From a virus: 64,000 bases of DNA. The notes beneath the pieces were generated by a model, which was not told where the DNA came from, did no database searches, and was given only the letters and a program-made list of their open reading frames with translations. Within the stretch, counting starts at the first letter, position 1. Each line of letters opens with the position of its first letter. Below are positions 3,683 to 20,300 of this stretch, one piece after another. The position numbers and the translations under genes were made by a program. The stretch spans positions 1 to 64,000 of IMG/VR virus record IMGVR_UViG_3300042560_001826; one strand, given 5' to 3'.

Positions 3683-3707
3683 TTAATAGTCTGTAATTAG
3701 TTGTTGC

Positions 3708-3733: not shown

Positions 3734-3755
3734 AAAACAATATAAAGGGATGATT

Positions 3756-4037: not shown

Positions 4038-4040
4038 TTA

Positions 4041-4424: not shown

Positions 4425-4433
4425 GGAGAGCCC

Positions 4434-4775: not shown

Positions 4776-5114
4776 ATGGCTAATTTAACACCTAAGAGTT
4801 TTTATATTGGATCTAATGTTGGAGCTGGCTCCAATGTTTATACTGTTTCAAATACAGTTGGCAACTATTCAATAATTAAAAACATTAATTTATGCAATAC
4901 AACAGCTTCAAATGCTGTATGTAGCATTCATCTTCTTGTTAATGGAGCATCAGTTGCTGATGCAAATAAAATTGTTAGCAATGTGAATGTTTTGGCAAAT
5001 AATGTTGTTTTCTATAATACATCCATAGTCATGCCTGCTAATAGTCGTATTCATGTTACTCAAGTAACAGCGAATGCTATAACATTTACAATTAGCGGTG
5101 TTGAATATGCCTGA
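4776..5114 (+). CDS. Small beta-rich fibre-associated protein (paralogue family)
   Basis: This 112-residue protein starts one base after the previous stop. It is Asn/Thr/Val rich with alternating strands (SIIKNINLCNTTASNAVCSI, HLLVNGASV, NNVVFYNTSIVMPANSRIHV). It belongs to a set of similar-sized proteins here (7117, 11966, 13761) with the same order of elements: an 'N-term strand, NT..D/S..V.L.., VLAAG/PA.., final GV/GW strand' pattern. They lie next to fibre connectors and Gly-rich adhesins, so a fibre-joining or decoration role is likely. It overlaps the next gene by 8 bases. The specific function is not recognised. Confidence 0.6.
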   Translation: MANLTPKSFYIGSNVGAGSNVYTVSNTVGNYSIIKNINLCNTTASNAVCSIHLLVNGASVADANKIVSNVNVLANNVVFYNTSIVMPANSRIHVTQVTANAITFTISGVEYA

Positions 5115-7080
5115 TCTTAATAGATCACTACTTGTTGAATCAGAAAATGCCGATACGCTCGGCGGATTGACTGATGTTACAATTACTGCCGCTGAAGAGT
5201 TTCAGGGTTTAAGTTATAACGGAACACAATGGGTTAATAGTCATATCCCAGTTGTTTCGTATGTTAGAAATGCTGAAGCAAATACATTAACAGCGGGGAC
5301 TGTTGTTTATCTTTTTGGCGGAACCGGTGATCACGCTACTGTTAAAAGAGCAGATAATTCAAGCGATACAACATCTTCAAAGACATTAGGTATTGTTGCT
5401 AATCCTATCTCAGCTTCACAAAATGGTCCAGTCGTAACTCGTGGCTATGTTGATGGAATGGATTTAAGCGTAGGTTATTCAGTTGGAGATATTCTGTGGT
5501 TAGGCAAGAACGGTGCGTTTACAAAGACAAAACCAACCGCCCCAGACCATCTTGTTTTTATTGGTGTGGTCGTCCGTGCAACCAACAACGGAATCATTTA
5601 CGTTGCAACACAAAATGGTTATGAACTTGAAGAATTGCACGATGTTAAGCTTTCAAATGTTGCATCTGGAGATTTTTTAAAGTATAACGGAACGCTGTGG
5701 ATTAATGGACCAATTACTCTTGGTACAGACACAACTGGGAATTATATGTCCAATGTGTCTGCTGGAAACTTAATATCTATTTCTCATACGCCGGGTGAAG
5801 GATCCACTGCAACTATTAATGTTGCTAATGGAACTGCAGGTCAAATAATTGTTGCAAATGCATCTGGTGCTCCAGTGTGGGTTACTGAATCTGGCGATAT
5901 AACAATTGATTCATCAGGCGTTGCATCAATCACTTCAAATGTTATCGTTAATGCCGATATAAGCACTACGGCTGCTATTTCTCTTTCTAAGCTTGCAAGT
6001 GGAACATCTGGTCAAGTTCCTGTTGCAAATGCAACCGGTGTTCCTACATATGTAACACTTTCTGGCGATATAACCATTGCTGCCAATGGTCAAACAACAA
6101 TTGCTGCTAACTCTGTTGCACTTGGTACTGACACTACAGGAAACTATATTGCTACAATTACTGGTACTGCAAATGAAATAACAGTAACTGGTTCTGGATC
6201 AGAAAGCGCTACTGTTACATTAAGTCTTCCAGCTAATGTTACTATTGCAAACAATCTTACAGTTACTGGAGATTTAACTGTTAATGGAAATACAACAACT
6301 CTTAATACCGCAAATCTTAATGTTGAAGATAACTTTGTTCTTCTTAACTCTGGAGTCACTGGATCTCCCACACTAAATGCGGGAATTGAAATTGAAAGAG
6401 GAACATCTACAAATGTTGCTATTCGCTGGAATGAGACAACAGATAAGTGGGAATTTACTGTTGATGGTACAAATTATACAGAGCTGGGTGCTGGTGGCGC
6501 AACTGTTTCTTCAACAGCGCCTTCTACACCAACAACCGGGTCTCTATGGTTTGACTCAGATGATGGTAAAACATATGTCTATTATGATTCTTCTTGGGTT
6601 GAAATTGGTGGCAATCCTCTTGGTGTTACAATCAGCGACTCTGCGCCATCTAGCCCGATAGCGGGTCAAGTTTGGTTTAATTCTAATAATGCTGGCACAT
6701 ATGTATATTATGACAGTCACTGGATTGAAATCGGCTCCAGCGGCTTGGTATCGGCTGTAAGCGCTACTGCGCCAGCAAGTCCTGTCACTGGTCAAATCTG
6801 GTTTAATTCAGAAGATGCCGGAACATATATTTATTACGATTCGGCTTGGATTGAAATTGGAGCAGCTCCATTCAATACAGTTCTTAATCAAATTGATGCC
6901 AAGGGCGATATTCTAGTCGGTACAGCAGATAATACGCTTTCTAAGATTGCACTTGGTACAAATGGCTATGTTCTTGCAGCAAACTCTGCAACAGCAACTG
7001 GTCTGGAATGGACACAGGTTTCAAGTAATCCCTTAACATCAAATGCTGCCGCCATATTTATTATGGACATCGGGGTATAA
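5107..7080 (+). CDS. Large tail fibre protein with three tandem 39-residue repeats
   Basis: I start this at ATG 5107 (657 residues), overlapping the previous gene by 8 bases; GTG 5098 is possible. It is a long beta-rich fibre with features common in phage fibres. There are repeated LGTDTTGNYM/I segments. A section (LTVTGDLTVNGNTTTLNTAN) is also present in the fibre at 22332-23657. Three consecutive repeats of about 39 residues lie at ~467-585, with the pattern SAPSxPxxGQxWFNSxxAGTYxYYDSxWIEIG. The same 'tick-label' motif occurs singly in the short connectors at 11705, 13505 and 15406. It ends IFIMDIGV. Fibre identity is secure by composition and context; whether it binds receptor is unknown. 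Confidence 0.8.
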   Translation: MPDLNRSLLVESENADTLGGLTDVTITAAEEFQGLSYNGTQWVNSHIPVVSYVRNAEANTLTAGTVVYLFGGTGDHATVKRADNSSDTTSSKTLGIVANPISASQNGPVVTRGYVDGMDLSVGYSVGDILWLGKNGAFTKTKPTAPDHLVFIGVVVRATNNGIIYVATQNGYELEELHDVKLSNVASGDFLKYNGTLWINGPITLGTDTTGNYMSNVSAGNLISISHTPGEGSTATINVANGTAGQIIVANASGAPVWVTESGDITIDSSGVASITSNVIVNADISTTAAISLSKLASGTSGQVPVANATGVPTYVTLSGDITIAANGQTTIAANSVALGTDTTGNYIATITGTANEITVTGSGSESATVTLSLPANVTIANNLTVTGDLTVNGNTTTLNTANLNVEDNFVLLNSGVTGSPTLNAGIEIERGTSTNVAIRWNETTDKWEFTVDGTNYTELGAGGATVSSTAPSTPTTGSLWFDSDDGKTYVYYDSSWVEIGGNPLGVTISDSAPSSPIAGQVWFNSNNAGTYVYYDSHWIEIGSSGLVSAVSATAPASPVTGQIWFNSEDAGTYIYYDSAWIEIGAAPFNTVLNQIDAKGDILVGTADNTLSKIALGTNGYVLAANSATATGLEWTQVSSNPLTSNAAAIFIMDIGV

Positions 7081-7116: not shown

Positions 7117-7452
7117 ATGGCAGTAGGAGATAGAACAGAAGCTAGGCTTGGCGGTCCAACACAGCTTAATACAAACACAACAACGGTTTGCACAGTTTCA
7201 GCAAGCCGGGTTGAGGTTTTAAAGCAGATCGTTATTACCAATACAGATACCGTTGATAGAACGGTTTCTTTGGCTATTGGAAATGCAGCGGTTGCTGCAA
7301 ATAGATTAATGTCTCAATTACCAATTGGTGCAAACGACATTATGGTTTTTGATACAGCACTTGTCCTCACAGCAGGTGAAACATTACAAGGTTTAGCCGA
7401 TGCAAATAGTGTTGTCAATGTAACAGTCATCGGTTGGGAAAAAGAAGTCTAA
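7117..7452 (+). CDS. Small beta-rich fibre-associated protein (paralogue family)
   Basis: This 111-residue protein has a good ribosome site (AAGGAGAT) and its own candidate promoter. The central pattern LKQIVITNTDTVDRTVSLAI, followed by an 'IGANDIMVFDTALVLTAGETLQG' type stretch and a closing VNVTVIGWE strand, is repeated in the gene at 11966 (NTDTTDRKLTLEF ... TVLGFVNV) and loosely in 13761 and 4776. This is a small beta-sandwich fold often found in virion decoration or fibre-linking proteins. It lies directly before two large Gly-rich adhesin genes and probably works with them. Structural role inferred from context. Confidence 0.65.
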   Translation: MAVGDRTEARLGGPTQLNTNTTTVCTVSASRVEVLKQIVITNTDTVDRTVSLAIGNAAVAANRLMSQLPIGANDIMVFDTALVLTAGETLQGLADANSVVNVTVIGWEKEV

Positions 7453-7458: not shown

Positions 7459-9195
7459 ATGGGTCTTTCTAAGGCTTACGGAGAGAAGTCCTTAACTGGA
7501 TATTCATACGGTGCTGGAACTGGTGGAGACACAACTTCCACTGGTGTCACCATTGGCGGAACGCTTTACAATATCCATACATTTACCAACACAGGTACTT
7601 TCACCGTTACTCGCCCAGGAAAGTTTGATGTGTTTGTCGTCGGTGGAGGAGGCGGCGGTGGTCGCCGCAGTAGCACCAATGTAGGCAGCGGTGGCGGAGG
7701 TGGCGGTGTTGTTATCCAACAAACGATTTACCTTGATACAAATGCAACGGTTACAGTCGGTGCGGGTGGAGGTGTGCAAACAAATACCAATACTGATGGC
7801 AATCGTGGTTCTTTTAGTCGTGTAAATCAAGTTACTGCTGGTGGTGGTGGCGGTGGTGCTGGCGGCGGTAGAGGGGCAGCAAATACCGCTATGGATGCGG
7901 CTGGTAGTGGTGGCGGTTCGTTCGGTTCTACCGCTACGGCTGGTGAAACACCAGGGCAAACGTTAATCACTATCGGCGCAAATAATGGCGGTAATGGCGG
8001 CTACACCACAAACCTTGCAGGCGGTGGAGGTGGAGGTTCGGCACAAGTTGGACAAGGTAATAGTGGTAATGCAGCAGGTAATGGTGGCGCAGGAACAGAT
8101 GTTTCAACTTTTATTGGAGGCTCATCTTTATTTGTAGGCGCTGGTGGCGGTGGTGGGTCAGTATCTGGCACTGGCGGTACAGCAGGTAGTTCAACAGGTG
8201 GCAATGGCGGTTCATCTGGCGCACAAGGTTTAAATGCAACGGCGACAAATTATGGTTGTGGCGGTGGAGGTGGTGCCACAACACAAGGTGGTTCTGGATC
8301 AAATGGAGTTGTCTACATCCGTTACGCAACCAATCAAGGCTTTACAACCAATACGGGAAATACAAAGAATGGTTATGGGACCGCAACTGGCGGCTCGTCA
8401 TCATCAATAACGGCTGATGGTGTAGGTTATACACTTTTAACTTTTACCTCTGCTGGCACATTGACAGTTACACAGGCTGGTTTGTTTGATTTATTAGTTG
8501 TTGGCGGTGGCGGTGGTGCCGGTAGTTCAGAAGTTGGCTCCAGTGGTGCTGGCGGTGGTGGTGCTGTTATTCAACAAACTGTTTATTTAAGTAGCAATCA
8601 ATCAATTACTGTTGGAGCTGGTGCTGCTGCTGGAGTATCTGCTAGAGGTGGTCCCAATGGTGGTGCATCTATTGTTGGTTCAACTGTTGGCGCTGTTGGT
8701 GGCGGTGGTGGAGGGGGTAGTTTTTCTGGACCATTTGTTGGTGGTTCTGGAGGTGGTGGTGCAGGTCAAGTAGGTGGTGGATATGGCAATGGTCAAACAG
8801 GTGCAGCTAGTGCATATGATCCAAGCACATCTTTTGGCAATTCTGGTGGCACATCATCTGGAGCCGCAGGGGATGCAGGCGGTGGCGGAGGTGCAGGTGG
8901 CGCAGGTGCAGCTAGTAATACTGGAGGAACAAACGGTGGTAAAGGCGGAGACGGAAAAGATGTTTCCTCCTTTCTTGGTCAATCTGCAGGGACTACTTAT
9001 CTTGGTGCTGGCGGTGGTGGTGGCGCAGATGCTGGTACTGCTGGAGCAGCGGGTTTAGGTGGAGTTGCTGGTAAAACAAGTGGAACTGGCAACAGCGGTG
9101 CAAACAATTCTGGTGCTGGTGGTGGAGGAACTGTCAATAATGCTACTGCTGGCGCTGGCGGTTCAGGCGTTGTCTATGTGAGGTTTAGAACATGA
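7459..9195 (+). CDS. Glycine-rich adhesin, two tandem domains
   Basis: This 578-residue protein has two similar Gly-rich domains of about 290 residues each. Each begins with a beta segment (LYNIHTFTNTGTFTVTRPGK; later YTLLTFTSAGTLTVTQAG), continues with FDVFVVGGGGGGG-type poly-Gly, then IQQTIYL and TVTVGAGG, long Gly-rich tracts, and closes with GVVYIRYA or GVVYVRFRT. This is the architecture of the Gly-rich fibre-tip proteins common in environmental phages, thought to form poly-glycine-II bundles with exposed loops that bind the host. No clear ribosome site precedes the ATG. It overlaps the next adhesin gene by 4 bases. The name is confident; the receptor is unknown. Confidence 0.8.
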   Translation: MGLSKAYGEKSLTGYSYGAGTGGDTTSTGVTIGGTLYNIHTFTNTGTFTVTRPGKFDVFVVGGGGGGGRRSSTNVGSGGGGGGVVIQQTIYLDTNATVTVGAGGGVQTNTNTDGNRGSFSRVNQVTAGGGGGGAGGGRGAANTAMDAAGSGGGSFGSTATAGETPGQTLITIGANNGGNGGYTTNLAGGGGGGSAQVGQGNSGNAAGNGGAGTDVSTFIGGSSLFVGAGGGGGSVSGTGGTAGSSTGGNGGSSGAQGLNATATNYGCGGGGGATTQGGSGSNGVVYIRYATNQGFTTNTGNTKNGYGTATGGSSSSITADGVGYTLLTFTSAGTLTVTQAGLFDLLVVGGGGGAGSSEVGSSGAGGGGAVIQQTVYLSSNQSITVGAGAAAGVSARGGPNGGASIVGSTVGAVGGGGGGGSFSGPFVGGSGGGGAGQVGGGYGNGQTGAASAYDPSTSFGNSGGTSSGAAGDAGGGGGAGGAGAASNTGGTNGGKGGDGKDVSSFLGQSAGTTYLGAGGGGGADAGTAGAAGLGGVAGKTSGTGNSGANNSGAGGGGTVNNATAGAGGSGVVYVRFRT

Positions 9196-10928
9196 GTATT
9201 TCTGGAGCAAGACAACCAAGATTGGCAACCGAATACGGTATTGCAGCCGGTGGCACAGATGTTACTGTTAATGGCATTGGATATAAGCTACATACATTCA
9301 CTGCAACAGGTACACTAACTGTCACTACTGGTGGTCTTTTTGATATCTTAGCTGTTGGCGGTGGCGGTGCTGGTGGAGGTAACTGGGATGGAACATTTCA
9401 GTCTGGTATGGGCGGTGGTGGTGCCGGAGGATATATTGAAAAAACTATCTACATTGCTAGCGGTACTCATTCAGTTGTAATAGGCGCAGGTGGTGCTGGT
9501 GATTATGCAGCTCCAAGAAATGGAACAAGTAGCGGTGTCTATGCCACATTTACTGGTGGTGGTGGAAGTGCTCCTTCATATGCAATCAATTTTAATAATA
9601 CTTGGTACGGTGCTAAAACTGGTTCTGATGGTGCTTCTGGTGGTGGTGGAACTGGTAGAGCTTCTCAAACTGCAACAAATGCTGGCGGTGCAGGTCAATC
9701 ACCATTAGGAAATAGTGGTGGTTCATCATTTAGTGAAAGCGGAAGCGGAACTTCCGCAGCAGGCGGAGGTGGTGGCGGTGCCGGTGCTGTTGGATCAAAT
9801 GCATCAGCAAATACTGGAGGCGCTGGTGGAGCAGGTGTTACATCAACATTTACCGGATCATCCACAACTCTTGGCGGCGGTGGAGGAGGCGGTGGTGTAA
9901 CCACTGGAGGCGCAGGTGGTGCTGGTGGAGGTGCTGCTGGTAGAACTGGTACTGGCAATGGAAACAATGCAACAGCAAACACCGGTGGCGGTGGTGGTGG
10001 TGCAAGAAGCAATGGAGAAAATCAATATATTGGCGGCAATGGTGGCTCAGGAATCGTCTATATCCGTAGAAGAGTAACAGGATCCATTGCAGCAACTGTT
10101 GCTGGTTATGGTACAGCAACTGGTGGAACAGACTTAGGAACACGGACTGTTAGTGGCATTGATTACAAGATTCTTCAATTCACATCAACGGGAACTTTGA
10201 CAGTGACGAAGGGTGGACTTTTTGACATTATAGCCATATCTGGTGGTGGAGGCGGAAATCAGGGATATACCAACTTCCCATCGCTTGCAAATGGTGGAGC
10301 TGGTGGCGGTGGCATTACCACTGAAACAATTTCCCTCACTACAAATGTGACTATCACGGTTGGTGCTGGTGGCGCTGGTGGTGCAACTGGCACTAATGGC
10401 ACAAGTGGAGCAACTGGATCTCCATCAGGTGTTAGCACGAGACTATTTGCCTTTGGTGGCGGAGGTGCTCAAGATAATATTCCGTCAAATGGTATTTGTG
10501 GCGCTGGTAGCACTCGCCAAACAGCTACAGGCGGATTAGCGATTTTAAATCAAGGAACCGGAGTGGTTCGTGGTTATGATGGCGGCTCAGGTCCAACTGG
10601 AAATACTAATGGCTCTGCTGGCGGTGGCGGTGGAGCTGGCGGTGTTGGTGGTAATGGTGTAGGCACTACTGGCGGTGCTGGCGGTGCTGGTTTTGATGTC
10701 TCAACAATTATTGGTGGCTCAACTTTGCTACTTGGTGGCGGTGGCGGTGGTCCTGGTTCAGTTACAGGTGGAACTGGTAATGGTGGCGGTGGCAATGGTG
10801 GTTCAAATGGTGCAGGAACATCTGGTTCAACAAACACAGGCGGAGGTAGTGGTTCAAGTATCAACAATAATTCTAATACTCTCAATGGTGGATCTGGCAT
10901 TGTTTATGTCAGATTTAGAGTATTGTAA
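9192..10928 (+). CDS. Glycine-rich adhesin, two tandem domains (second copy)
   Basis: Also exactly 578 residues, beginning at an ATGA overlap with the previous adhesin. It has two domains: first YKLHTFTATGTLTVTTGG, FDILAVGGGGAGGG, YIEKTIYI and closing GIVYIRRRV; then YKILQFTSTGTLTVTKGG, FDIIAISGGGGGN and closing GIVYVRFRV. It is clearly a duplicate of the upstream gene that has diverged in the Gly-rich loops while keeping the same framework. It is expected to be an alternative or partner host-recognition protein at the fibre tip. The Pro-rich reading frames on the other strand are mirror images of the Gly codons and are not genes. Confidence 0.8.
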   Translation: MSISGARQPRLATEYGIAAGGTDVTVNGIGYKLHTFTATGTLTVTTGGLFDILAVGGGGAGGGNWDGTFQSGMGGGGAGGYIEKTIYIASGTHSVVIGAGGAGDYAAPRNGTSSGVYATFTGGGGSAPSYAINFNNTWYGAKTGSDGASGGGGTGRASQTATNAGGAGQSPLGNSGGSSFSESGSGTSAAGGGGGGAGAVGSNASANTGGAGGAGVTSTFTGSSTTLGGGGGGGGVTTGGAGGAGGGAAGRTGTGNGNNATANTGGGGGGARSNGENQYIGGNGGSGIVYIRRRVTGSIAATVAGYGTATGGTDLGTRTVSGIDYKILQFTSTGTLTVTKGGLFDIIAISGGGGGNQGYTNFPSLANGGAGGGGITTETISLTTNVTITVGAGGAGGATGTNGTSGATGSPSGVSTRLFAFGGGGAQDNIPSNGICGAGSTRQTATGGLAILNQGTGVVRGYDGGSGPTGNTNGSAGGGGGAGGVGGNGVGTTGGAGGAGFDVSTIIGGSTLLLGGGGGGPGSVTGGTGNGGGGNGGSNGAGTSGSTNTGGGSGSSINNNSNTLNGGSGIVYVRFRVL

Positions 10929-10994: not shown

Positions 10995-11687
10995 ATGCCG
11001 TTTAGTTCTGTATTGGGTGCATCAACTGTTATAAGACCGGGTGTTTGTACTTCTACAACCCGCCCATCTGCTCCATATACAGGGCAGTTAATCTTTGAAA
11101 CCGATACCAGCCGATTGGCAGTATGGACAGGTTCTGCATGGCAGTACGAAACCGCTGCTGCTGGTCCTCCTGGGTTGGTATATATCACTGGGGCAACCTT
11201 TACAACTGCCACATCATTTAGCTTGCCTAATGATACCTTTAGTAATACTTATCTCAATTACAAAATTATAATCAATCTGACTGCGCTGACAGCCGACGCA
11301 GACTTTACTATGCGTTTTCGCACCGCTGGAACGGATAACAGCAATAACACATATGCATATACTTTTGCTGGAGTGGGGCTTGGCGGCACTGCTACCAACA
11401 GTGCAGCCAACGATGGAACAGCGTTCGTCGTAGGAGAACAAGAGGCTACATCTGGTTCAGAAATGCGTTATGGTCTTACATTTGATATCTTAAGCCCTAA
11501 AGCAACAACGACTACTAAAGTACAAGGTCATTACGTTTACGTCAATAAGGCGGCAACAGACCAAATTTCTCGTTTCGGTTCAGGCGTATTTAGGGCTACT
11601 ACTTCTTTTGACAGTTTAAGCTTCATAAGCTCTGTAGCGTCAAGCATGTCTGGAAACTACCGTGTATACGGATACACGGATAGTTAA
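10995..11687 (+). CDS. Tail fibre / receptor-binding-type protein
   Basis: This 230-residue protein has ribosome site GGAGAT. The N-terminal ~65 residues contain the fibre 'label' motif seen elsewhere here (TTRPSAPYTGQLIFETDTSR then WTGSAWQYE), followed by GPPG. The rest is a beta-sandwich-like domain (FSLPNDTFSNTYLNYKIIIN, FTMRFRTAGTDN, YTFAGVGLGG, and a final SMSGNYRVYGYTDS strand) of the kind that caps phage fibres and may bind carbohydrate. It ends the first part of the fibre block before the repeated cassettes. Function inferred from domain style and neighbours. Confidence 0.65.
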   Translation: MPFSSVLGASTVIRPGVCTSTTRPSAPYTGQLIFETDTSRLAVWTGSAWQYETAAAGPPGLVYITGATFTTATSFSLPNDTFSNTYLNYKIIINLTALTADADFTMRFRTAGTDNSNNTYAYTFAGVGLGGTATNSAANDGTAFVVGEQEATSGSEMRYGLTFDILSPKATTTTKVQGHYVYVNKAATDQISRFGSGVFRATTSFDSLSFISSVASSMSGNYRVYGYTDS

Positions 11688-11704
11688 TATCGGAGGTATA
11701 TAAA

Positions 11705-11956
11705 ATGCCAATTGATTTTCCAAATAGCCCCGCAACAAATGATCAGTTTGTAAGTGGCGGTCGTACATGGATTTGGGATGGTTCCGTATGGAAGGCATAT
11801 ACTCAAGCATTAAATAATTCAACAATTACTTCTAATATGATTGTAGATGGTACAATTGTTAATGCTGATATCTCAAATACAGCTGCAATTAATACAACTA
11901 AAATTACAAATTGGGAAGATGACCAAGTAGTTCTAGCTGTCCAAGCTTTTATTTAA
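11705..11956 (+). CDS. Short fibre connector, DFPN type (cassette 1)
   Basis: This 83-residue protein has ribosome site CGGAGGTAT. It is one of three paralogues (also 13505, 15406) that all begin M-x-DFPN-SP-T-N and carry a GGRTWIWDGSVWK-like motif. The C-terminal half, NADISNTAAINTTKITNWED, is almost identical to that of the copy at 15406, and the protein ends in a hydrophobic tail VVLAVQAFI. It is probably a fibre base or adaptor that anchors the adhesin encoded two genes downstream. It opens the first of three repeated four-gene cassettes. Confidence 0.7.
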   Translation: MPIDFPNSPATNDQFVSGGRTWIWDGSVWKAYTQALNNSTITSNMIVDGTIVNADISNTAAINTTKITNWEDDQVVLAVQAFI

Positions 11957-11965
11957 GGAGGAAAA

Positions 11966-12328
11966 ATGGCAACATTTTCAAAGACAATTTTAAGCGGATC
12001 TACAAATGGTAGACCAGTTCTTGTCAATACAACATCATCTAATACATGTGTTGTTCACACAGGTTCAACAAATACATCTGTCCAACACGAAGTCTGGATT
12101 TATGCAATGAATACAGATACGACAGATCGCAAGCTTACGCTTGAGTTTGGTGGTGTTACAAGCCCCAATGACTTGATCGAGCAAACAATTACCGCTGAAG
12201 GCGGGTTGTTATTGGTCATTCCAGGTTTAATTCTTAGCGGTAATGCTTCTACAGCTCCCAGAATCACAGCATTCGCAAACACAGCCAATGTTGTTACAGT
12301 TCTTGGTTTTGTCAACGTCATTGCATAA
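11966..12328 (+). CDS. Small beta-rich fibre-associated protein (cassette 1)
   Basis: This 120-residue protein has a strong ribosome site (AAGGAGGAAAA). It resembles the gene at 7117: VWIYAMNTDTTDRKLTLEFG matches IVITNTDTVDRTVSLAIG, and the ending VVTVLGFVNVIA matches VVNVTVIGWEKEV. A small beta-sandwich is likely. It sits between a DFPN connector and a Gly-rich adhesin, the same place as 13761 in cassette 2. A joining or decoration role in the fibre is inferred. Confidence 0.65.
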   Translation: MATFSKTILSGSTNGRPVLVNTTSSNTCVVHTGSTNTSVQHEVWIYAMNTDTTDRKLTLEFGGVTSPNDLIEQTITAEGGLLLVIPGLILSGNASTAPRITAFANTANVVTVLGFVNVIA

Positions 12329-12338
12329 GGAGGCTTAA

Positions 12339-13187
12339 ATGCGTTTTGGTGAGCGTACACGCCCCGGCGTATCTATAAGCACATTTGGTAGACGACCTTC
12401 TGCTGGTATTTCCTATGGCGTGGCAACAGGTGGCACCTCTTCATCTATTACCGATAACAGTATTGCTTACACACTGTTGAGTTTTACTTCTGATGGAACT
12501 TTAACTGTAACCAAGGCTGGGCTATTTGATATTTTGTGTGTTGGAGGCGGTGGTGGAGGTGGCGCACAACTGTACGGAGGTGAACCAACTGGAGGCGGCG
12601 GTGGAGGAATGGCTTGCATTTCAACTTTGTTTCTTCCAGTCGCTTCTTATACTGTTGATGTTGGTGTTGGTGGTGCTGGCGGAGATTCCAATACACACGC
12701 TGGTTCTCTTGGGGAAACATCCGTAATTTTTAATGCAAAAGCAACAACTTCTGTCATGCATGCAATAGGTGGACAGGGTGGTGCTGGAGACTGGGGCGGC
12801 GTTAGTCGTTATCCCGGAAATCAAGGTGGTCAAAGTTACCGCAACGGATATAATCAAACTGTTGCAGGTGCAATATCTTTGCATCCACTTGGATACAACG
12901 GTGGAGGTTCGCAGAACTCAACAACTCGTGCTGGCGGTGGTGCTGGTGCAGGAGGAGATGCGAGCGATTCGCCAGCAGGAACTGCTGGTATTGGTCGCAC
13001 ATTGACATTTACTGGAAGCAGTGTAACTTTTGGTCAAGGTGGTGGCGGAGGAACCGCTACTGGTCTTGGCACAAACACACCGTCTACAGTGAACTCTGGG
13101 AATGGTGGCAATGGTCGCCAAAGCGGAGGCTCTGGTAACGGTGGGAATGGTCAAGCAGGTGCAATATATGTGAGGTTCCGCCCGTGA
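12339..13187 (+). CDS. Glycine-rich adhesin (cassette 1)
   Basis: This 282-residue, single-domain adhesin has ribosome site AAGGAGG. A basic N-terminus (MRFGERTRPGVSISTFGRRP) leads into the framework seen in the larger copies: YTLLSFTSDGTLTVTKAGLF, DILCVGGGGGGG, VGVGGAGG, Gly-rich tracts and GAIYVRFRP at the end. It would be a fibre-tip host-recognition protein. It overlaps the cap gene by 4 bases (GTGA). In length it equals half of the 578-residue copies, which supports domain duplication in those. Confidence 0.8.
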   Translation: MRFGERTRPGVSISTFGRRPSAGISYGVATGGTSSSITDNSIAYTLLSFTSDGTLTVTKAGLFDILCVGGGGGGGAQLYGGEPTGGGGGGMACISTLFLPVASYTVDVGVGGAGGDSNTHAGSLGETSVIFNAKATTSVMHAIGGQGGAGDWGGVSRYPGNQGGQSYRNGYNQTVAGAISLHPLGYNGGGSQNSTTRAGGGAGAGGDASDSPAGTAGIGRTLTFTGSSVTFGQGGGGGTATGLGTNTPSTVNSGNGGNGRQSGGSGNGGNGQAGAIYVRFRP

Positions 13188-13411
13188 GTGAACAAACCTA
13201 TTTTGCCAAAGTTGAAGATGGTATTGTTACAGATGTTCGTATTGTAAAATGGGATTTCCTTGTAGCAAACCCAGACCGTTACGGTGATTCCTCTTTTTGG
13301 ATTGAAGTTTTTCCAGATAACTCTGGTCGTGGCTACTGCTCTAAGGGTTGGTCATATGACGCTGAACTTGATAAATTTATAGGTCCGTTTATTAGCAAGG
13401 TAGCAGAATAA
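13184..13411 (+). CDS. MAHFA-type fibre-associated protein (cassette 1)
   Basis: This 75-residue protein starts at a GTG overlapping the adhesin stop. It belongs to a small family common beside fibre genes in environmental phages: an N-terminal FAKVEDGIVTDVRIVKWDF strand pair and a C-terminal GWSYDAELDKFIGP motif. Two longer paralogues follow at 15026 and 16595. This copy lacks the Tyr/Arg-rich insert and the C-terminal W-rich extension. It may be a small cap or chaperone for the adhesin; its function is not established. Confidence 0.65.
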   Translation: MSEQTYFAKVEDGIVTDVRIVKWDFLVANPDRYGDSSFWIEVFPDNSGRGYCSKGWSYDAELDKFIGPFISKVAE

Positions 13412-13504
13412 TGTGTTCGTATATTGGCTATGTATAGTTTAGGATTTAATTAAATATATTTTAATATAAAATAATATATGATATTCTTTATTGAGAGGTA
13501 AAAT
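13412..13504. other. AT-rich non-coding leader before cassette 2
   Basis: A 93-base gap. Bases ~13445-13490 are almost entirely A and T and contain TTAATTAA and a 7-bp inverted repeat (TATTTTA at 13457-13463, TAAAATA at 13467-13473). GAGAGGT just before ATG 13505 is the ribosome site. It could hold a promoter, but no single convincing -35/-10 pair can be chosen. Confidence 0.4.
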
Positions 13505-13759
13505 ATGGCAATTGATTTTCCAAACTCCCCAACAACAAACCAGATTTTTACATCTGGCGGAAAGACATGGGTGTATGATGGAACAGTTTGGACATTAAGA
13601 TCCTCGTTGGCAGGTCCTGGTGGAATTACCTCAACAGAGCTTGCAAACTCATCTGTTACAACTGATAAAATTGCATCAGGTGCAATAGTTTCTAATTTAG
13701 GATTTACACCGGCATCAACCGGTAAAAGTATTGCTATGGCAATAGTATTCGGAGGATAA
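13505..13759 (+). CDS. Short fibre connector, DFPN type (cassette 2)
   Basis: An 84-residue paralogue of 11705 and 15406: MAIDFPNSPTTN and GGKTWVYDGTVW are conserved, followed by a diverged second half (TELANSSVTTDKIASGAIVS) and a hydrophobic end, IAMAIVFGG. The GPGG tract in the middle resembles a short collagen-like or flexible link. It starts cassette 2 and probably anchors the adhesin at 14117. Confidence 0.7.
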   Translation: MAIDFPNSPTTNQIFTSGGKTWVYDGTVWTLRSSLAGPGGITSTELANSSVTTDKIASGAIVSNLGFTPASTGKSIAMAIVFGG

Positions 13760-13760
13760 A

Positions 13761-14114
13761 ATGGCAGCGCCAAATATAGTTAATGTAACAACAATTACGG
13801 GTAAAACAGCAGTTCAAGCGGTGACCACATCTGCTACAGCGATTGTCACAAATTCTGCTGCCAGTAATACAGTCGTTAAAATCAATGCATTATATGTTGC
13901 AAATATTGATGGTACAAACGCTTGCGATCTCACTGTTGATTTGTTTAGAAGTTCAACCGCATATAAAATTACTTCAACCGTATCGGTTCCGGCAGATGCG
14001 GTGCTAGATGTTATTAGTAAATCAATATATCTTGAAGAAGGTGACTCTCTCAGACTCACTGCTGGTGCTAATTCAGACCTTGAGGCGGTTTGTTCTTACG
14101 AAATTATTAGTTAA
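13761..14114 (+). CDS. Small beta-rich fibre-associated protein (cassette 2)
   Basis: This 117-residue protein has ribosome site CGGAGG. Pattern: TSATAIVTNSAASNTVVKIN, ALYVANIDGTNACDLTVDLF, then VPADAVLDVISKSIYLEEGD and a final strand. This type (VSxxAD-VLDVI, IYLEEGDSLRL) is well known among fibre-adjacent phage proteins and is a small beta-sandwich. It occupies the same cassette position as 11966 but is only distantly similar. Structural role inferred. Confidence 0.65.
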   Translation: MAAPNIVNVTTITGKTAVQAVTTSATAIVTNSAASNTVVKINALYVANIDGTNACDLTVDLFRSSTAYKITSTVSVPADAVLDVISKSIYLEEGDSLRLTAGANSDLEAVCSYEIIS

Positions 14115-14116
14115 TT

Positions 14117-14962
14117 ATGCGTAGAAGAGGCGGCGTAATAGGACCAAAGCGAAATGCTAATGGTGGTGGTGGCATATGGTCATTAAATGATCAACAGCAA
14201 GAAAATGGCGCTGGAACTTGGGGTGTAATGTCAACATCCGTAGTTGAATATTTGATAATTGCTGGCGGTGGCGGTGGTGGTCCTAGTGGCGGTGGCGAAA
14301 GAGGCGGCGGTGGTGCTGGAGGTTATAAGACAAACCTATCTGGAGCAACCAATGGTGGCGGTCAAGCACTTGGTACTGTCATGAATGTTACTGGCGGGAG
14401 TCAGTATACGGTAACTGTTGGTGGAGGTGGAAATGGAAGTTCAACCCCAACAGCCGGCAGTAGCTCCGTATTTAATTCAATCACTTCTACTGGTGGCGCT
14501 GTCGGTGGTGGTGGTGGTACTGACCCTGGTGGTGCTGCTGGTTCGTTTGGCTATACTGGCGGTTCGTCAATAAATAACTCTGCTGCTGGCGGAGGTGGTG
14601 GCGCTGGGGCTGCTGGTGGTAATGCCAGCAGCGGCGTTGCAGGAAATGGTGGCGCAGGTTTGGCAAGCACAATTACTGGTTCATCGGTTACTCGTGGCGG
14701 TGGCGGTGGTGGGAGTGCTTCAGGTGGAACTAATGGAACTGGCGGTTCTGGTGGTGGAGGTAATGCAACCCTAGGTGGAACAGCAAATACTGGTGGCGGA
14801 GGTGGTGGCGCTGGTGGTGCTGGCGGTTCTGGCGTTGTTATTATTCGTTACCCATCAACATCATTAGCGGCAACAACGACTGGTGCATCTGTTGTTTATA
14901 ATAACGGTGCTGGCGGTTATCATGTTTACACATTTAATGCTTCTGGTACAATAACATTTTAA
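14117..14962 (+). CDS. Glycine-rich adhesin (cassette 2)
   Basis: This 281-residue protein has a basic N-terminus (MRRRGGVIGPKRNANGGGG). The framework is VEYLIIAGGGGGGPSGGG, GGGGAGGYKTNLSG, YTVTVGGGGNG, long Gly-rich tracts, then GGSGVVIIRYPSTS and a C-terminal strand domain (GGYHVYTFNASGTITF). This is the variant typical of cyanophage-like Gly-rich fibres, whose last ~45 residues form an extra beta cap absent from cassette 1. It is followed by a candidate promoter and the cassette 2 cap gene. Confidence 0.8.
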   Translation: MRRRGGVIGPKRNANGGGGIWSLNDQQQENGAGTWGVMSTSVVEYLIIAGGGGGGPSGGGERGGGGAGGYKTNLSGATNGGGQALGTVMNVTGGSQYTVTVGGGGNGSSTPTAGSSSVFNSITSTGGAVGGGGGTDPGGAAGSFGYTGGSSINNSAAGGGGGAGAAGGNASSGVAGNGGAGLASTITGSSVTRGGGGGGSASGGTNGTGGSGGGGNATLGGTANTGGGGGGAGGAGGSGVVIIRYPSTSLAATTTGASVVYNNGAGGYHVYTFNASGTITF

Positions 14963-14986
14963 CTAATAGATTTTTATTTCTACCTG

Positions 14987-14995
14987 TGGTATTAT
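14987..14995 (+). promoter_or_regulatory. Candidate promoter, TGGTATTAT
   Basis: An extended -10 of TGG-TATTAT (-10 at 14990-14995) lies in the 63-base gap before the gene at 15026, which also has a strong ribosome site (AAAAGGAGGTTTT). It shares the TGGTATNAT form with several other gaps. -35 not clear. Confidence 0.45.
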
Positions 14996-15025
14996 ATACA
15001 AGAAACCAAAAGGAGGTTTTCTAAA

Positions 15026-15391
15026 ATGGCTCATTTTGCCCAAATTAACGAAAGCAATATCGTGACACAGGTTATCGTTGTGTCCAATAACGATTGTGGT
15101 GGTGGAGAATACCCCGGATCGGATTCCATCGGAGCTGCCTTTTGCCATAATCTTTTAGGCGGAACATGGAAACAAACTTCTTATAATAATAATTTCCGTA
15201 AGCGCTACGCCGGAATTGGATATACATTCAATGCTGAGCTTGATGCATTCATTGCCCCTCAGCCGTATCCTTCTTGGACATTGAATACGGAAACAGCAGA
15301 TTGGGAAGCCCCAACACCACGCCCCACAGAAGGCGTATGGACATGGAATGAATCCACTCAGCAATGGGATGAGGTTACATTACCCGCTTAA
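15026..15391 (+). CDS. MAHFA-type fibre-associated protein, long form (cassette 2)
   Basis: This 121-residue protein has a strong ribosome site. The family pattern is complete: MAHFAQINESNIVTQVIVVS, WKQTSYNNNFRKRYAGIGYT, FNAELDAFIAPQPYPSW, followed by the Trp-rich extension DWEAPTPRP, VWTWNESTQQWDEV. This full-length form is common in cyanophage fibre regions. The shorter copies at 13184 and 16595 lack the extension. The partner is presumably the Gly-rich adhesin upstream. Its biochemical role has not been established as far as I know. Confidence 0.75.
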   Translation: MAHFAQINESNIVTQVIVVSNNDCGGGEYPGSDSIGAAFCHNLLGGTWKQTSYNNNFRKRYAGIGYTFNAELDAFIAPQPYPSWTLNTETADWEAPTPRPTEGVWTWNESTQQWDEVTLPA

Positions 15392-15405
15392 TTAAGAGGT
15401 AACTA

Positions 15406-15696
15406 ATGCCATTAGATTTCCCAAATACACCGGCAACAAATGATAAGTATTCTGCTGGTGGAAGAACATGGACATATAACGGAACATCTTGGGTATTAGA
15501 TGTTTATGTCGGAGTTGTACCAGTTGGTGCTGTTGATACAGCGCAGCTGGCAAATTCCGCTGTCACAAGTGCAAAGATTGCAGATGGTACGATTGTTAAT
15601 GCCGATATCTCTACATCAGCAGCAATAACAACAACAAAAATTACAAACTGGGAAGATGATCAAGTCGTTCTATCTTCCCAAATTTTTTCTGCATAG
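15406..15696 (+). CDS. Short fibre connector, DFPN type (cassette 3)
   Basis: This 96-residue protein is the third DFPN paralogue: MPLDFPNTPATN, GGRTWTYNGTSWVLD, then a repeated ...NSAVTSAKIADGTIVNADIS... pattern and the shared block TTKITNWEDDQVVL, ending SSQIFSA. The identity of this block with the copy at 11705 points to recent duplication or recombination between cassettes. The small beta protein present in cassettes 1 and 2 is absent here; the adhesin follows directly. Confidence 0.7.
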   Translation: MPLDFPNTPATNDKYSAGGRTWTYNGTSWVLDVYVGVVPVGAVDTAQLANSAVTSAKIADGTIVNADISTSAAITTTKITNWEDDQVVLSSQIFSA

Positions 15697-15707
15697 ATGG
15701 TGATTTG

Positions 15708-16592
15708 ATGTCTTACGGAAGAAGATTAAGATCGGGCACTTCAGTAAGTAATTGGACTAAGCGTAGTGCCAGCGCTCCTCTAAATATTGCCACTGTTGAA
15801 TATCTTGTCATTGCTGGTGGTGGCGGTTCGCAAACATCGGGCGGCGCTGACCGTGGCGGTGGTGGCGCTGGTGGCTATCGCTGTTCAGTAGTCGGTGAAA
15901 CAACTGGTGGTGGTGGTTCAGCAGAAGTAAGACTGGCTTTCTTCAAGAACACGACCGTGACTGTCACCGTTGGTGCTGGTGGCGGTATCTCTACACAAGG
16001 TAGCAGTAGTTCGTTTGCCGGAATTACATCTACTGGTGGTGGCGGGGCTACTGACGGTACTGGCGGTTCTGGCGGTTCTGGTGCTGGTGGTTCGGGTGGT
16101 TCGGCTGGCGGCGCTCGCACTGCATCACCGGTACAAGGCAACAACGGCGGAAGTGCGGGAACGCAAGGTTCTGGTGGCGGTGGTGGTGCTGGCGGTGCTG
16201 GCACTAATGCCACCACGAATACTGGCGGCAATGGCGGTATCGGTTTGAGTTCGTCTATTGACGGAGCCGCAACTAGTCGTGGCGGCGGTGGTGGCGGTGG
16301 TGGTCTAAGTACTGGCGGTCCTGGCGTTGCTGGCGGTGGGAACGGCGATTCAAACTCTGTTCCTGGTAGTGCTGGCTCAGCAAATACTGGTGGTGGCGGT
16401 GGTGGAACTTACGCAAGTCGTTCAGGGCGTTCTGGCGGCTCGGGAATAGTCATCATGCGTTATCCATCAAGTTTTGGAACGTTGACATCTATCGGCGCAG
16501 GACTCACATCAACGACGGGAACCTACTCATCTGGTGGAGTAACTTATCGTTACTACTCATTCACTGCTGGCACGGACACGATTACTTTCTGA
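15708..16592 (+). CDS. Glycine-rich adhesin (cassette 3)
   Basis: This is about 294 residues from the ATG at 15708; a TTG at 15705 is in the same frame. The basic N-terminus MSYGRRLRSGTSVSNWTKRS is followed by VEYLVIAGGGGSQTSGG, GGGGAGGYRCSV, VTVTVGAGGG, Gly-rich tracts, GGSGIVIMRYPSSF and a C-terminal cap (GGVTYRYYSFTAGTDTITF). It is close to the cassette 2 adhesin in framework, but the Gly-rich loops differ. GC content is higher than in surrounding genes because of the glycine codons. Confidence 0.8.
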   Translation: MSYGRRLRSGTSVSNWTKRSASAPLNIATVEYLVIAGGGGSQTSGGADRGGGGAGGYRCSVVGETTGGGGSAEVRLAFFKNTTVTVTVGAGGGISTQGSSSSFAGITSTGGGGATDGTGGSGGSGAGGSGGSAGGARTASPVQGNNGGSAGTQGSGGGGGAGGAGTNATTNTGGNGGIGLSSSIDGAATSRGGGGGGGGLSTGGPGVAGGGNGDSNSVPGSAGSANTGGGGGGTYASRSGRSGGSGIVIMRYPSSFGTLTSIGAGLTSTTGTYSSGGVTYRYYSFTAGTDTITF

Positions 16593-16594
16593 TT

Positions 16595-16879
16595 ATGGCA
16601 CACTACGCATTTATCAACTCAAACAATGTCGTGACGGAAGTGATTGTAGGTCGTGACGAAGATGATCTAGCAGATGGAGTTTCCTCGTGGGAAGAATATT
16701 ACGCAACAAAACGTGATGGTGTTATTTGCAAACGAACTTCATACAACACTTATCGTGATGAGAACGGCGTTCCGCAACATGCAAACGGTGGCGTACCATT
16801 CCGTGGTCAGTATGCTGGTATCGGTGACAGATACGACGCAGAACTAGATCAATTTATAACACCAAATAATCCTAAATAA
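16595..16879 (+). CDS. MAHFA-type fibre-associated protein (cassette 3)
   Basis: This 94-residue protein starts two bases after the adhesin stop. The pattern is MAHYAFINSNNVVTEVIVGR, CKRTSYNTYRDENGVPQHAN, GGVPFRGQYAGIGDRYDAEL, DQFITP. It is the intermediate-length form, without the Trp-rich tail. This is the last gene of the first fibre block; a clear promoter and the lysis region follow. Confidence 0.75.
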   Translation: MAHYAFINSNNVVTEVIVGRDEDDLADGVSSWEEYYATKRDGVICKRTSYNTYRDENGVPQHANGGVPFRGQYAGIGDRYDAELDQFITPNNPK

Positions 16880-17126: not shown

Positions 17127-17400
17127 TAAATATACCCCAGAAGACCTTGATGCAAGGTTAAGATTTGTTATTGGCTGTGTCTTGGGTGCAGTGCTCTTTA
17201 CAACGACATTAGCCATTCTATATGCTCTCGTTTTTGTTTCTCAACCAATTGGTGCACAAGCAGAAAATGACAAAATGTTCTTTAGCGTTCTTTCAAGCAT
17301 TGCCACATTTATTACCGGCACATTGGCTGGTTTGATGATTTCCAATGTGAAAGGAAAGCAGGCACAGGAAGAAGAGGCTGATATTCCAGTAGAGGAATAA
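17119..17400 (+). CDS. Holin-like membrane protein, two transmembrane helices
   Basis: I start at ATG 17119 (93 residues), preceded by GAAGGAGAG and overlapping the lipoprotein stop. There are two hydrophobic segments: ~16-40 (LRFVIGCVLGAVLFTTTLAI and on) and ~52-73 (FFSVLSSIATFITGTLAGLM). They are followed by a short charged tail (KGKQAQEEEADIPVEE). This layout, with a small size and position in front of an endolysin region, fits a holin or antiholin. The TAATG junction joins it to the next large gene. Other holin-like genes lie at 20367 and 20601, so which one is the true holin is open. Confidence 0.55.
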   Translation: MNNKYTPEDLDARLRFVIGCVLGAVLFTTTLAILYALVFVSQPIGAQAENDKMFFSVLSSIATFITGTLAGLMISNVKGKQAQEEEADIPVEE

Positions 17401-20300
17401 TGAAAATTAGCTTTAGAAAAGGCTGGTGGACAGCTCTGCCCTTGGCGGTTATTGCTTTAATAACAATTCCAACCGTTGATGCTTCTTCTACACAAGAACC
17501 CATAGCAAATGCTGGCTTTGAAGATAATTCATTTACTGGCTGGTCTAGGGGGACTCAAACAGGCAATTTGGGATCTGCAATAAATGGCAATGGTACTGGC
17601 GTAACTATTTTTAGCGGTCCAAAAACCTTTAGTCATCCATCACATCCAGCAGTAGGTAGTGCTACAAGAAATGGCGCTCCCAACCCATATTATGCCCCAG
17701 CGGTATCGGCAGGAAGCTGGACATTCTCCCCAAGCAATGCCTCATACGCTGCTTTGCTGCAACCAAGGAATGAGCAAAATTTTTCTCAAGCAATGACAGC
17801 CCTTGGCTTATCTGGATCCCCACAAACAGCAATACAAGCACAATTAACAGCAGATGCGCAAGCTGCCGCAAATGGAGGGCAGTCCAATCCAACTGATGCT
17901 GCATGGATTACTCGTGAAGTTCAATTGACTTCTGGAATTACTTATACGATGTCTTGGAACTATTTGGGTACTGATTATGTTCCATTTAATGATGGTTCAT
18001 TAACTTCGCTTGTTGCTGTCTCTACACCATCAACTCCGACAATAACAGTTAATAATTTTAATCGCTCATATGCACTTCTTGGATTTACAAATCCGGGAAC
18101 TGGAGATTATTCTGTAAACTCATATGGCTCTACTGGTTGGCAAACATCAACTTATAAAGTTTCAGTAAGTGGTACATATAAACTTGGCTTTGCTGTTTTT
18201 AATCTTGGAGATACAGCTCTATCTCCAGTATTAATGATTGACAATGCAATAGGTGACACTCAGCGATGTGCTCCTGCAGGTAGTAATTGTACGACTTTTG
18301 GTGGCGTTGCCCCGAATAATGAAACGGCTCCAACTGTAGCACCTACAACAACTACCACTTCTACTACAACTACGACTACTACAACGACTACAACAACTAC
18401 TACAACTACTACCACGACAACTACTACGACTACAACATTACCACCTACAACAACTACAACGCAGCCTGCAAACAATACACAGTCAGGATTAAATGCCGTT
18501 GGTTATTTAATAAATCAAATTCCTCCTATTAAATCTGATACGCAATACACATCATGTGGTTCTGAAATTGAGAATAATATAAATCGTAATTTTGATGGAG
18601 AGCCGTTCCAGCAATGCGGCTCGGATAATTTTATGATCCACTACACTGGATTTATTACCATTCCTGAAAATAATACAATCCAATTTATGGTTGCTGCAGA
18701 TGATGGCGGAACTATAAAAATTGACGATACAGAATTTGGTGATTGGAATGTCAAAGGATGTTCTTGGTCGCAGGCTACAACAAATTCTTTTGCTGCAGGA
18801 ACATACGCATTAGATGGTTGGTTTTATGAGCACGGCGGTGCATCTTGTTATATGCTGGCATGGAAAATTAATGGTGGTGATTGGGAGATAGTTCCGGATT
18901 CTGCATTTACTATTGACGGATCAAGCACTCCTACAACAACTACAACTGTTGCTCCTCAAACAACCTCAACGATTTCTTCAACGACTTCCACAACGACAGT
19001 CCCTGAAACAACATCTTCAACCAGTACCACAACAACATCGCCTCCCCAGACTACTACTACAACCGTTTATGTGCCAACAGTCACGACAACAACTGAACCT
19101 GAGCCTGAAGAAGAACCAGAAACTACTACAACGACTGAGCCAGAAGTTACTACGACAACTGAGCCTGAGTTTATTCAACCGGAGGATGAAGAGGAGGCTC
19201 AGCCTGTTGAGCCTGAAACGACCCTTCCTGATTATCCAGAAGAAGAACAAGAAGGAGAACAGCAGCCAGAACCGATATCCCCAGAAGAAACGACAGAGCA
19301 AGATACAGAATCACAAGAGACTATAGTAACACAAGAAGAGTTTGAAAGTATTATTGAAGATATATCTTCTGAAGAAATTCAGGCAGAAGATGTAATAGAG
19401 GTAATTGATAATCTCAATTCAGAACAACTTACAGAAGTTTTAGAATCTATAGGTATAGAGCAATTAACAGAAGTAATTGATGAATTATCAGAAGAGCAAA
19501 CTCTTGATCTTGTTGAAAATATTGAATCCGTAGAAGCTTTAGATAATGTTATTAATGCAATTGCTGATTCGGAAGAACCAATTGAGGCATCTGTTGCAGT
19601 AGCAATTATTTTAAATGATAACTTTACAGAGATATCTACTGAGGCAGCCCAAGAGGTTTTTGCAAATGTTGATGCTGATTCTTTTACTGATGAACAAAAA
19701 GAGGAACTCTCTGAGGCTCTTACGGAAGCCCCTGATGAAATCAAAGAGGCTTTTGAAGAGGAAATTGATGTTTATGGCGGAGGTTTTGATACTTATGTTC
19801 CAACAGGATCAAGCATTGATGTTGGCGCAAGAAAAACAGTTATCGCTGCAGTTGCAACATTAACAGCAACGGTTGCCGTTACTGGCGCTGCCGGAGCGTC
19901 ACCAACAGCACCAGCAGGAGGCTCAGGAGGCGGTTCTGGAGGCTCAGGAGGCTCTTCTAATCCAAGTTCTGGCTCAGAAGGTCGTTCACGAAAAGAAGAA
20001 GAGGGAAGCGAGCCAGCAGGTGAAATTGTTGATGCTGAAGGTGAGGATGATGAGCATTATGCTAAAAATAGCATTTACGAGTATTATATAAAGGAGGGAA
20101 TTGAAATGAAGAAATTTAACTGGTCTGGTTTTATAAACAAACTTTGGAATATAACTGCCGGGTTAGCATTTACTCTTGCAGGTAGCTATGTTGTTTATAT
20201 TACCCTCTCTGGCGCAACGCAAAGAGCAGCGGGTGTTGCTACCTTAATTGCAATATTTATCCACTATACTCACAATATCTTTAAAAACGATATTAACTGA
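17400..20300 (+). CDS. Secreted PA14-domain protein with poly-Thr linkers and C-terminal membrane segments
   Basis: This 966-residue protein has a signal peptide (KGWWTALPLAVIALITIPTV, cut near DASS). Residues ~30-310 form a beta-rich carbohydrate-binding-like module (NAGFEDNSFTGWSRG). A poly-Thr linker follows (~312-355). Residues ~361-507 form a PA14-type domain (MVAADDGGTIKIDD ... YALDGWFYEHGGASCYMLAW). A second Thr/Glu-rich linker and a strongly acidic helical region (~575-790, EQLTEVIDELSEEQTLDLVE) come next, then a hydrophobic stretch (~815-838), a Gly/Ser linker, and two membrane helices at the end that coincide with a possible nested gene. It is probably exposed on the cell envelope, or is a virion-borne envelope binder. 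It lies between holin-like genes. Linkers of this kind are typical of Acidimicrobiia surface proteins, so host origin is plausible. Confidence 0.6.
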   Translation: MKISFRKGWWTALPLAVIALITIPTVDASSTQEPIANAGFEDNSFTGWSRGTQTGNLGSAINGNGTGVTIFSGPKTFSHPSHPAVGSATRNGAPNPYYAPAVSAGSWTFSPSNASYAALLQPRNEQNFSQAMTALGLSGSPQTAIQAQLTADAQAAANGGQSNPTDAAWITREVQLTSGITYTMSWNYLGTDYVPFNDGSLTSLVAVSTPSTPTITVNNFNRSYALLGFTNPGTGDYSVNSYGSTGWQTSTYKVSVSGTYKLGFAVFNLGDTALSPVLMIDNAIGDTQRCAPAGSNCTTFGGVAPNNETAPTVAPTTTTTSTTTTTTTTTTTTTTTTTTTTTTTTTLPPTTTTTQPANNTQSGLNAVGYLINQIPPIKSDTQYTSCGSEIENNINRNFDGEPFQQCGSDNFMIHYTGFITIPENNTIQFMVAADDGGTIKIDDTEFGDWNVKGCSWSQATTNSFAAGTYALDGWFYEHGGASCYMLAWKINGGDWEIVPDSAFTIDGSSTPTTTTTVAPQTTSTISSTTSTTTVPETTSSTSTTTTSPPQTTTTTVYVPTVTTTTEPEPEEEPETTTTTEPEVTTTTEPEFIQPEDEEEAQPVEPETTLPDYPEEEQEGEQQPEPISPEETTEQDTESQETIVTQEEFESIIEDISSEEIQAEDVIEVIDNLNSEQLTEVLESIGIEQLTEVIDELSEEQTLDLVENIESVEALDNVINAIADSEEPIEASVAVAIILNDNFTEISTEAAQEVFANVDADSFTDEQKEELSEALTEAPDEIKEAFEEEIDVYGGGFDTYVPTGSSIDVGARKTVIAAVATLTATVAVTGAAGASPTAPAGGSGGGSGGSGGSSNPSSGSEGRSRKEEEGSEPAGEIVDAEGEDDEHYAKNSIYEYYIKEGIEMKKFNWSGFINKLWNITAGLAFTLAGSYVVYITLSGATQRAAGVATLIAIFIHYTHNIFKNDIN
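18340..18470 (+). repeat. ACN codon repeat encoding poly-threonine linker
   Basis: About 40 nearly consecutive Thr codons (ACA, ACT, ACC, ACG mixed) form a degenerate trinucleotide repeat inside the 966-residue protein. The third bases vary, so this is selected at protein level rather than being a recent microsatellite. A second, less regular Thr-rich stretch lies at about 18930-19150. Confidence 0.85.
20106..20300 (+). CDS. Possible nested in-frame holin-like protein at the 3' end of the PA14 gene
   Basis: Within the last part of the 966-residue frame, AAGGAGG (20091-20097) stands 8 bases before an in-frame ATG at 20106. That is an ideal start signal in the middle of a gene. Translation from it gives 64 residues, starting MKKFNWSGFINKLWN, with two membrane segments (~14-34, around NITAGLAFTLAGSYVVYITL; and ~42-57, AAGVATLIAIFIHY) and a charged end. 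This is the form of a small holin and it lies just before further holin-like genes and the endolysin. It may be produced separately, together with the full-length fusion. Two products from one frame is an inference from the ribosome site. Confidence 0.5.
   Translation: MKKFNWSGFINKLWNITAGLAFTLAGSYVVYITLSGATQRAAGVATLIAIFIHYTHNIFKNDIN

Follow-up and report, generated by a model that had tools for sequence, protein, structure and literature searches.

The gp38 proteins of T2/S16-like phages are glycine-rich (Gly-rich) adhesins that sit at the tip of the tail fibre and are encoded by a gene of their own. In these respects, they are like the adhesins of the fibre-gene array analysed here, which lies in a 64,000-nucleotide stretch of virus DNA (the window; positions 1 to 64,000 of IMG/VR virus record IMGVR_UViG_3300042560_001826, which is 105,121 bases long). 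However, no sequence match was detectable between the array proteins and solved structures (PDB), and we know of no typed adaptor in the gp38 systems of T2/S16-like phages. The anchor-branched receptor-binding protein systems of Klebsiella KP32/KP34, of K1-5 and of G7C (Latka et al. 2019, PMC6872550) resemble the array in having several receptor-binding proteins per phage, short conserved docking peptides and exchangeable binding parts. Their proteins dock by an N-terminal peptide to a T4gp10-like domain or an adapter protein, whereas here a separate gene for a small, probably jelly-roll protein is matched in type to both the C-terminal tail of a connector and the N-terminus of an adhesin. No array protein matched the T4gp10-like domain in Pfam, the one resource used, and recognition of this domain usually takes a remote-homology search. 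In gp24/gp25 of the myocyanophage Pam3 (PMC9608196), helical attachment, TNF-like and Gly-rich receptor-binding parts and a small companion gene recur, but all three parts lie in one protein, with a Tfa-type chaperone, whereas in the array they belong to separate genes. Finally, in the ExsF/BclA and ExsF/F-Anchor pairs of Bacillus spores (PMC11952670), a trimeric TNF/C1q-like jelly-roll captures the terminal peptide of a fibre protein; these systems belong to a spore surface and to no phage, and their tie to the array is the fold similarity of one predicted model.

The locus is best read, with a probability of about 0.72, as an array of exchangeable receptor-binding cassettes, in which adhesins would be physically plugged onto typed connectors through typed adaptors. 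Each cassette would comprise a connector, whose N-terminus may attach to the phage tail, a small jelly-roll adaptor, at least one Gly-rich adhesin and a small companion protein, the cap. The adaptor, possibly a trimer, would join its connector tail to its adhesin N-terminus, which is the simplest cause of the matched types described below, and recombination would swap adhesin bodies between phages while the matched interface is kept. On this model the window would hold one set each of types T3, T1 and T2, plus a further unit (unit 3) with a T1 connector and a T1-looking adhesin, and one virion may carry several fibres. The broader proposition that aquatic phages of unrelated hosts have common, mutually exclusive plug-and-socket joints, with several adhesins per virion at addressed positions and bodies freely exchanged, stands at even odds in our judgement.

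Three types were found, in each of which the final ~12 residues of a connector, the beta protein encoded next and the first ~35 residues of the following adhesin form a matched set. Scans with the three small beta proteins yielded 316 beta places, and the tail of the open reading frame (ORF) before the beta gene has its core around DDDQVVLSAQVFS in T1, around STGKAIAMAIVFGG in T2 and around AAIIxMDIGA in T3. Of 149 unique tails, leave-one-out profiles classified 131 correctly by beta type and 2 incorrectly, and left 16 unassigned (permuted labels, 34%); for 208 of 213 adhesin N-termini, the nearest neighbour from another locus was of the correct type (permuted, 33%; maximum, 46%). In the 34 loci with at least two types, 48 of 49 tails match, one is unassigned and none mismatches; that no mismatch occurs in loci of this kind is the strongest evidence for the rule. 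The leave-one-out set and the multi-type loci were chosen through the beta protein, and a reverse test was run blind to it. When loci were fetched by tail profiles alone, 55 of 57 tails were immediately followed by a matching beta gene (T2, 24/25; T3, 10/10; T1, 21/22), with 0 mismatched, and the remaining two tails had a beta of the same type further along the locus. An earlier reverse scan over the fetched loci gave 185 matching tails, one borderline cross case and 16 tails without a beta directly next to them, several of which are false tails and several of which have a matching beta past an inserted gene. Because the tail-selected loci partly overlap those fetched earlier, because the tail profiles derive from tails already known to stand before a beta and because the phages are related and so not independent, these counts are not probabilities.

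Isolated phages also carry such cassettes. In Pelagibacter phage HTVC033P, gp66-gp63 are tail, adaptor, adhesin and cap, and in Synechococcus phage Bellamy, gp39-gp41 are tail, adaptor and adhesin; both obey the T2 rule, and the isolates DSL-LC04 and S-SKS1 have T2 sets with variations. The HTVC033P and Bellamy cassettes differ from the present array in that they serve other hosts, number one or few and are mostly annotated as hypothetical. T1 and T3 adaptors had no match among isolated-phage records at the limit used. At two further places in Bellamy (L404; related loci are cited by such numbers), 2789-5612 and 8551-10483 (gp36-38 and gp42-44), a short, a small and a Gly-rich protein follow in the same triple order, but their tails are different, a sign that additional types may exist. 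In the isolates, such arrays contain or adjoin genes annotated as 2OG-Fe(II) oxygenases (HTVC033P, L402, gp61/gp60; DSL-LC04, L403; Bellamy gp46), and similar-looking unannotated ORFs occur within metagenomic arrays, possibly at L089 10599-13653 and L088 1855-2487. Multiple receptor-binding proteins with short docking peptides (PMC6872550) and the hypervariability of recognition genes in marine phages (PMC3909814) are already known. No earlier account of connector tails, adaptors and adhesin starts that come in types appeared in the literature searched, with most subscription journals outside that search, and the matching rule is what is new here.

For the structure of the adaptor, the in-frame genes of connector 1 and adaptor 1 were read through, and the product was folded by AlphaFold as a single chain with 35 relatives. 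The T1 adaptor is predicted with confidence to be a beta-sandwich (predicted local distance difference test, pLDDT, about 90), and Foldseek paired this model with many TNF/C1q-like jelly-rolls, including Bacillus ExsF and BclA and a domain of the short tail fibre of cyanophage A-1(L). The template-modelling (TM) scores are low, partly since the connector half of the model is disordered, and the T1 adaptor is a candidate TNF/C1q-like jelly-roll by resemblance, which is not proof. A beta-sandwich is also predicted for the T3 adaptor, at moderate confidence (pLDDT about 75); the Gly-rich domain modelled together with it came out unreliable and was unusable for judging the fold of that domain. In ExsF trimers, the leader peptide of F-Anchor is captured in an intersubunit cleft (PMC11952670), which provides a precedent for the proposed docking to the adaptor.

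The matched types might reflect linkage alone, that is, recombination of tail, beta gene and adhesin start as one block with homologous seams in the flanking genes, in which case the beta protein need touch neither partner. The three genes are adjacent, and the seams do fall within connectors and adhesin starts; however, the match between tail and beta is kept across an inserted gene in L188, L234, L235, L260 and L318, it holds for adhesins that do not adjoin a beta gene (42 of 45 coded Gly-rich ORFs of this kind have a matching beta elsewhere in the locus, where 17 would be expected), the beta-blind cases show no mismatch, and connectors before one beta type have unrelated, freely varying N-terminal parts. 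Linkage as the whole explanation is accordingly rated as distinctly improbable. In several arrays, one adaptor is followed by two or three adhesins of the same code. A connector and a Gly-rich domain share a single ORF, with no adaptor, in L088, L019 and L089, and among the 316 beta matches there is no connector-adaptor or adaptor-adhesin fusion. Several observations speak against docking through typed adaptors. Within a type, the distances between adaptors correlate weakly with those between tails or adhesin N-termini (rho 0.11-0.15 for T1, 0.29-0.43 for T2/T3), and in T2/T3 the adhesin bodies correlate too. Seventy-five array adhesins are uncoded, bearing none of the three codes; unit 3 departs from the usual gene order; the tail in the read-through model is a low-confidence helix (pLDDT about 61), with no docking visible; and the association could in part stem from one DNA block that transfers tail, adaptor and adhesin N-terminus together. 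Strand donation by the connector tail into the adaptor was considered as a mode of joining and rejected on account of this modelled helix.

Being small and present once per cassette, the beta protein could also be a fibre-folding chaperone that stays outside the virion. Pam3 gp25, a protein with a beta-sandwich domain, is a chaperone of this kind and is not found in virions (PMC9608196). For the beta protein this role seems unlikely, because the type of the beta protein tracks connector tail and adhesin N-terminus alike, as that of a joint would, and because the cap, encoded just downstream of the adhesin, would be the better chaperone candidate; the beta proteins gave no Pfam or PDB match to Tfa. 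It is likewise doubtful that the three units together form a single long, branched fibre. Klebsiella phages do have branched receptor-binding complexes with conserved docking peptides (PMC6872550), but the DFPN N-terminus on all three connectors suggests one common attachment point for each. The sequence-only reading took a different view, namely that one fibre cassette was duplicated twice in tandem and then diverged into a bank of alternative receptor-binding modules, perhaps serving a broad host range or assembled as several fibres per virion. The units are real, in the order and at the positions given by that reading and all on the + strand, they follow the same gene order, and connectors 1 and 3, 57% identical by BLAST, are both related to connector 2. 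The comparisons that follow make the duplication very improbable and already mostly refute it.

Similarity between paralogues was expressed as a z-score against shuffled sequences. Corresponding connectors, adhesins and caps are similar above this background, most clearly the connectors (1/3, z=40, 54/82 identical; 1/2, z=23; 2/3, z=22), followed by the adhesins (2/3, z=21; 1/2, z=10; 1/3, z=7) and the caps (2/3, z=17; cap 1 against the others, z=6 by local alignment only). The small beta proteins, which had been taken as corresponding parts, are barely similar (z=4.3) and belong to different families: beta 1 matches PHROG 30535 over its full length (E 7e-33) and beta 2 does not, matching PHROG 1276 weakly. 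A description of all caps as MAHFA-type suits caps 2 and 3 (PHROG 7759) but not cap 1, which starts MSEQTYFAKVEDG and matches only PHROG 14370, a family of short caps. Adhesin 1 is nearer to the double-domain adhesins encoded upstream, at 7459 and 9192 (z 17-20), than to adhesin 2 or 3. The block reported as almost identical in connectors 1 and 3 is real in that their last 37 residues are common to both, but the DNA is ~80% identical with many synonymous changes; therefore, it reflects a conserved protein and no recent copy. This is the only close paralogue pair, yet each member has a closer counterpart in L086 or L085, and for beta 2, cap 2, cap 3 and the adhesins, tens to more than 100 relatives closer than the paralogues in the window occur in other phages among the fetched loci. 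The units are thus related in their parts but are not copies of a single cassette.

Exchange among related phages is visible in the near relative L086, which matches window DNA at 85-87% over 11689-12397 (connector 1, beta 1 and the start of adhesin 1), 13453-13674 (the start of connector 2) and 14960-15539 (cap 2 and the start of connector 3). Between these seams, the body of adhesin 1 and the stretch comprising the end of connector 2, beta 2 and adhesin 2 are replaced in L086. Unit contents are also replaced in L165, where the body of unit 2 is absent and the last unit has a T1 adaptor. Comparison across related phages, as proposed at the outset, shows that the number and contents of the units vary (L165, L086, L089, L087, L019/L090). 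A bank of alternative receptor-binding modules remains the best reading, and its origin by duplication and divergence of one cassette is not supported. In the near relatives L086 and L165, the unit 1 connector has before it an ORF of 67-76 residues (L086 1925-2155; L165 3837-4040) with the ending ..LAALGLTEDEVNA.IGG, which is absent from the window. Another ORF, of 74-75 residues (..IDY.SLLT.EQK..), lies between connector and adaptor in L234 (3128-3352) and L235 (574-801), in a T1 cassette in one phage and a T3 cassette in the other.

In the 105-kb record, which may be incomplete, no reverse transcriptase (PF00078) and no serine recombinase (PF00239) were found; therefore, there is no obvious sign that inversion or a diversity-generating element switches between the genes as alternatives. 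Inverted repeats sought as a switching mechanism were weak and chance-like only.

The features of the array are listed in Table 1.

Table 1. Genes of the fibre array, with window coordinates and the basis of each assignment
Feature	Position	Strand	Basis
Long fibre connector, 660 residues, tail type 3 (..TSNAAAIFIMDIGV)	5098..7080	+	ORF; PHROG tail-fibre matches
Small beta adaptor, type 3 (third beta kind)	7117..7452	+	99% identical to L006
Gly-rich adhesin, two Gly-rich domains, T3-type N-terminus	7459..9195	+	PF21722; PHROG 2295; N-terminus grouped with T3
Second Gly-rich double-domain adhesin	9192..10928	+	PF21722
Fibre protein, N-terminus common after T3 adaptors (..RPGVCTSTTRPSAPYTGQ..)	10995..11687	+	Weak PHROG matches
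Unit 1 connector, DFPN N-terminus, tail type 1 (NWEDDQVVLAVQAFI)	11705..11956	+	Alignments, tail profile
Unit 1 small beta adaptor, type 1	11966..12328	+	PHROG 30535; AlphaFold; Foldseek
Unit 1 Gly-rich adhesin, T1-type N-terminus (MRFGERTRPGV..)	12339..13187	+	PF21722; N-terminus comparison
Unit 1 cap, short distant form	13184..13411	+	PHROG 14370; 69% identical to other phages' caps
Unit 2 connector, DFPN N-terminus, tail type 2 (ASTGKSIAMAIVFGG)	13505..13759	+	Alignments, tail profile
Unit 2 small beta adaptor, type 2	13761..14114	+	85% identical to L243/L244
Unit 2 Gly-rich adhesin, T2-type N-terminus (MRRRGGVIGPK..)	14117..14962	+	PF21722; N-terminus comparison
Unit 2 cap, MAHFA type	15026..15391	+	PHROG 7759, E 4e-45
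Unit 3 connector, DFPN N-terminus, tail type 1, no adaptor gene after	15406..15696	+	Alignments, scored tail
Unit 3 Gly-rich adhesin, T1-looking N-terminus (MSYGRRLRSGTSVSNWTKR)	15705/15708-16592	+	PF21722; N-terminus judged by eye
Unit 3 cap, MAHFA type	16595..16879	+	PHROG 7759

The array extends upstream of the three units, which the genes at 5098, 7117, 7459, 9192 and 10995 all precede. The tail of the connector at 5098 matches the T3 profile and is followed by the T3 beta protein, and the fibre protein at 10995 is 49% identical over 230 aa to L024/L334. Five adhesins score above the Pfam cut-off (24.3 bits) for PF21722 (Gly_rich_2). The major capsid protein is 49-50% identical to those of Streptomyces phages (Jay2Jay, Evy); therefore, the host of this aquatic tailed phage is likely to be an actinobacterium. 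Soon past the array, at 17400-20300, the window encodes a protein of 966 residues that contains long Thr-rich runs, matches PA14 below threshold and has a hydrophobic C-terminus.

Unit 3 lacks a small beta protein, as had been noticed at first reading: the gap between connector 3 and adhesin 3 is 8 nt to the TTG start or 11 nt to the ATG start, too short for a beta gene, so a third beta gene is truly absent. The tail of connector 3 was scored as T1, and the start of adhesin 3 looks T1 by eye. A T1 tail without an adjoining adaptor, and with no unrelated insert to blame, was found in one other real case, L088, where the lone T1 tail is followed by a second T1 connector and a T1 adaptor. On the simplest reading, unit 3 probably uses the T1 adaptor of unit 1.

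Of the 120 caps with a long ORF before them, 109 come after a Gly-rich one, while 14% of long ORFs are Gly-rich, and the position of the cap resembles that of many fibre chaperones. The cap has no Tfa, Pfam, NCBIfam or PDB match, homologues of the unit 2 cap occur in cyanophages and pelagiphages, and the two kinds of adhesin ending showed no clear pairing with long and short caps. That the cap is a folding chaperone or a tip is a guess.

Little is known of how phages in the environment take up new binding parts and still assemble their fibres. With a type code that can be read from sequence, one could predict which adhesin pairs with which connector in metagenomic phages and annotate proteins at present listed as hypothetical, among them HTVC033P gp63-gp65 and Bellamy gp39-gp41. 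Such a code would also make specific docking testable with short peptides and small soluble proteins.

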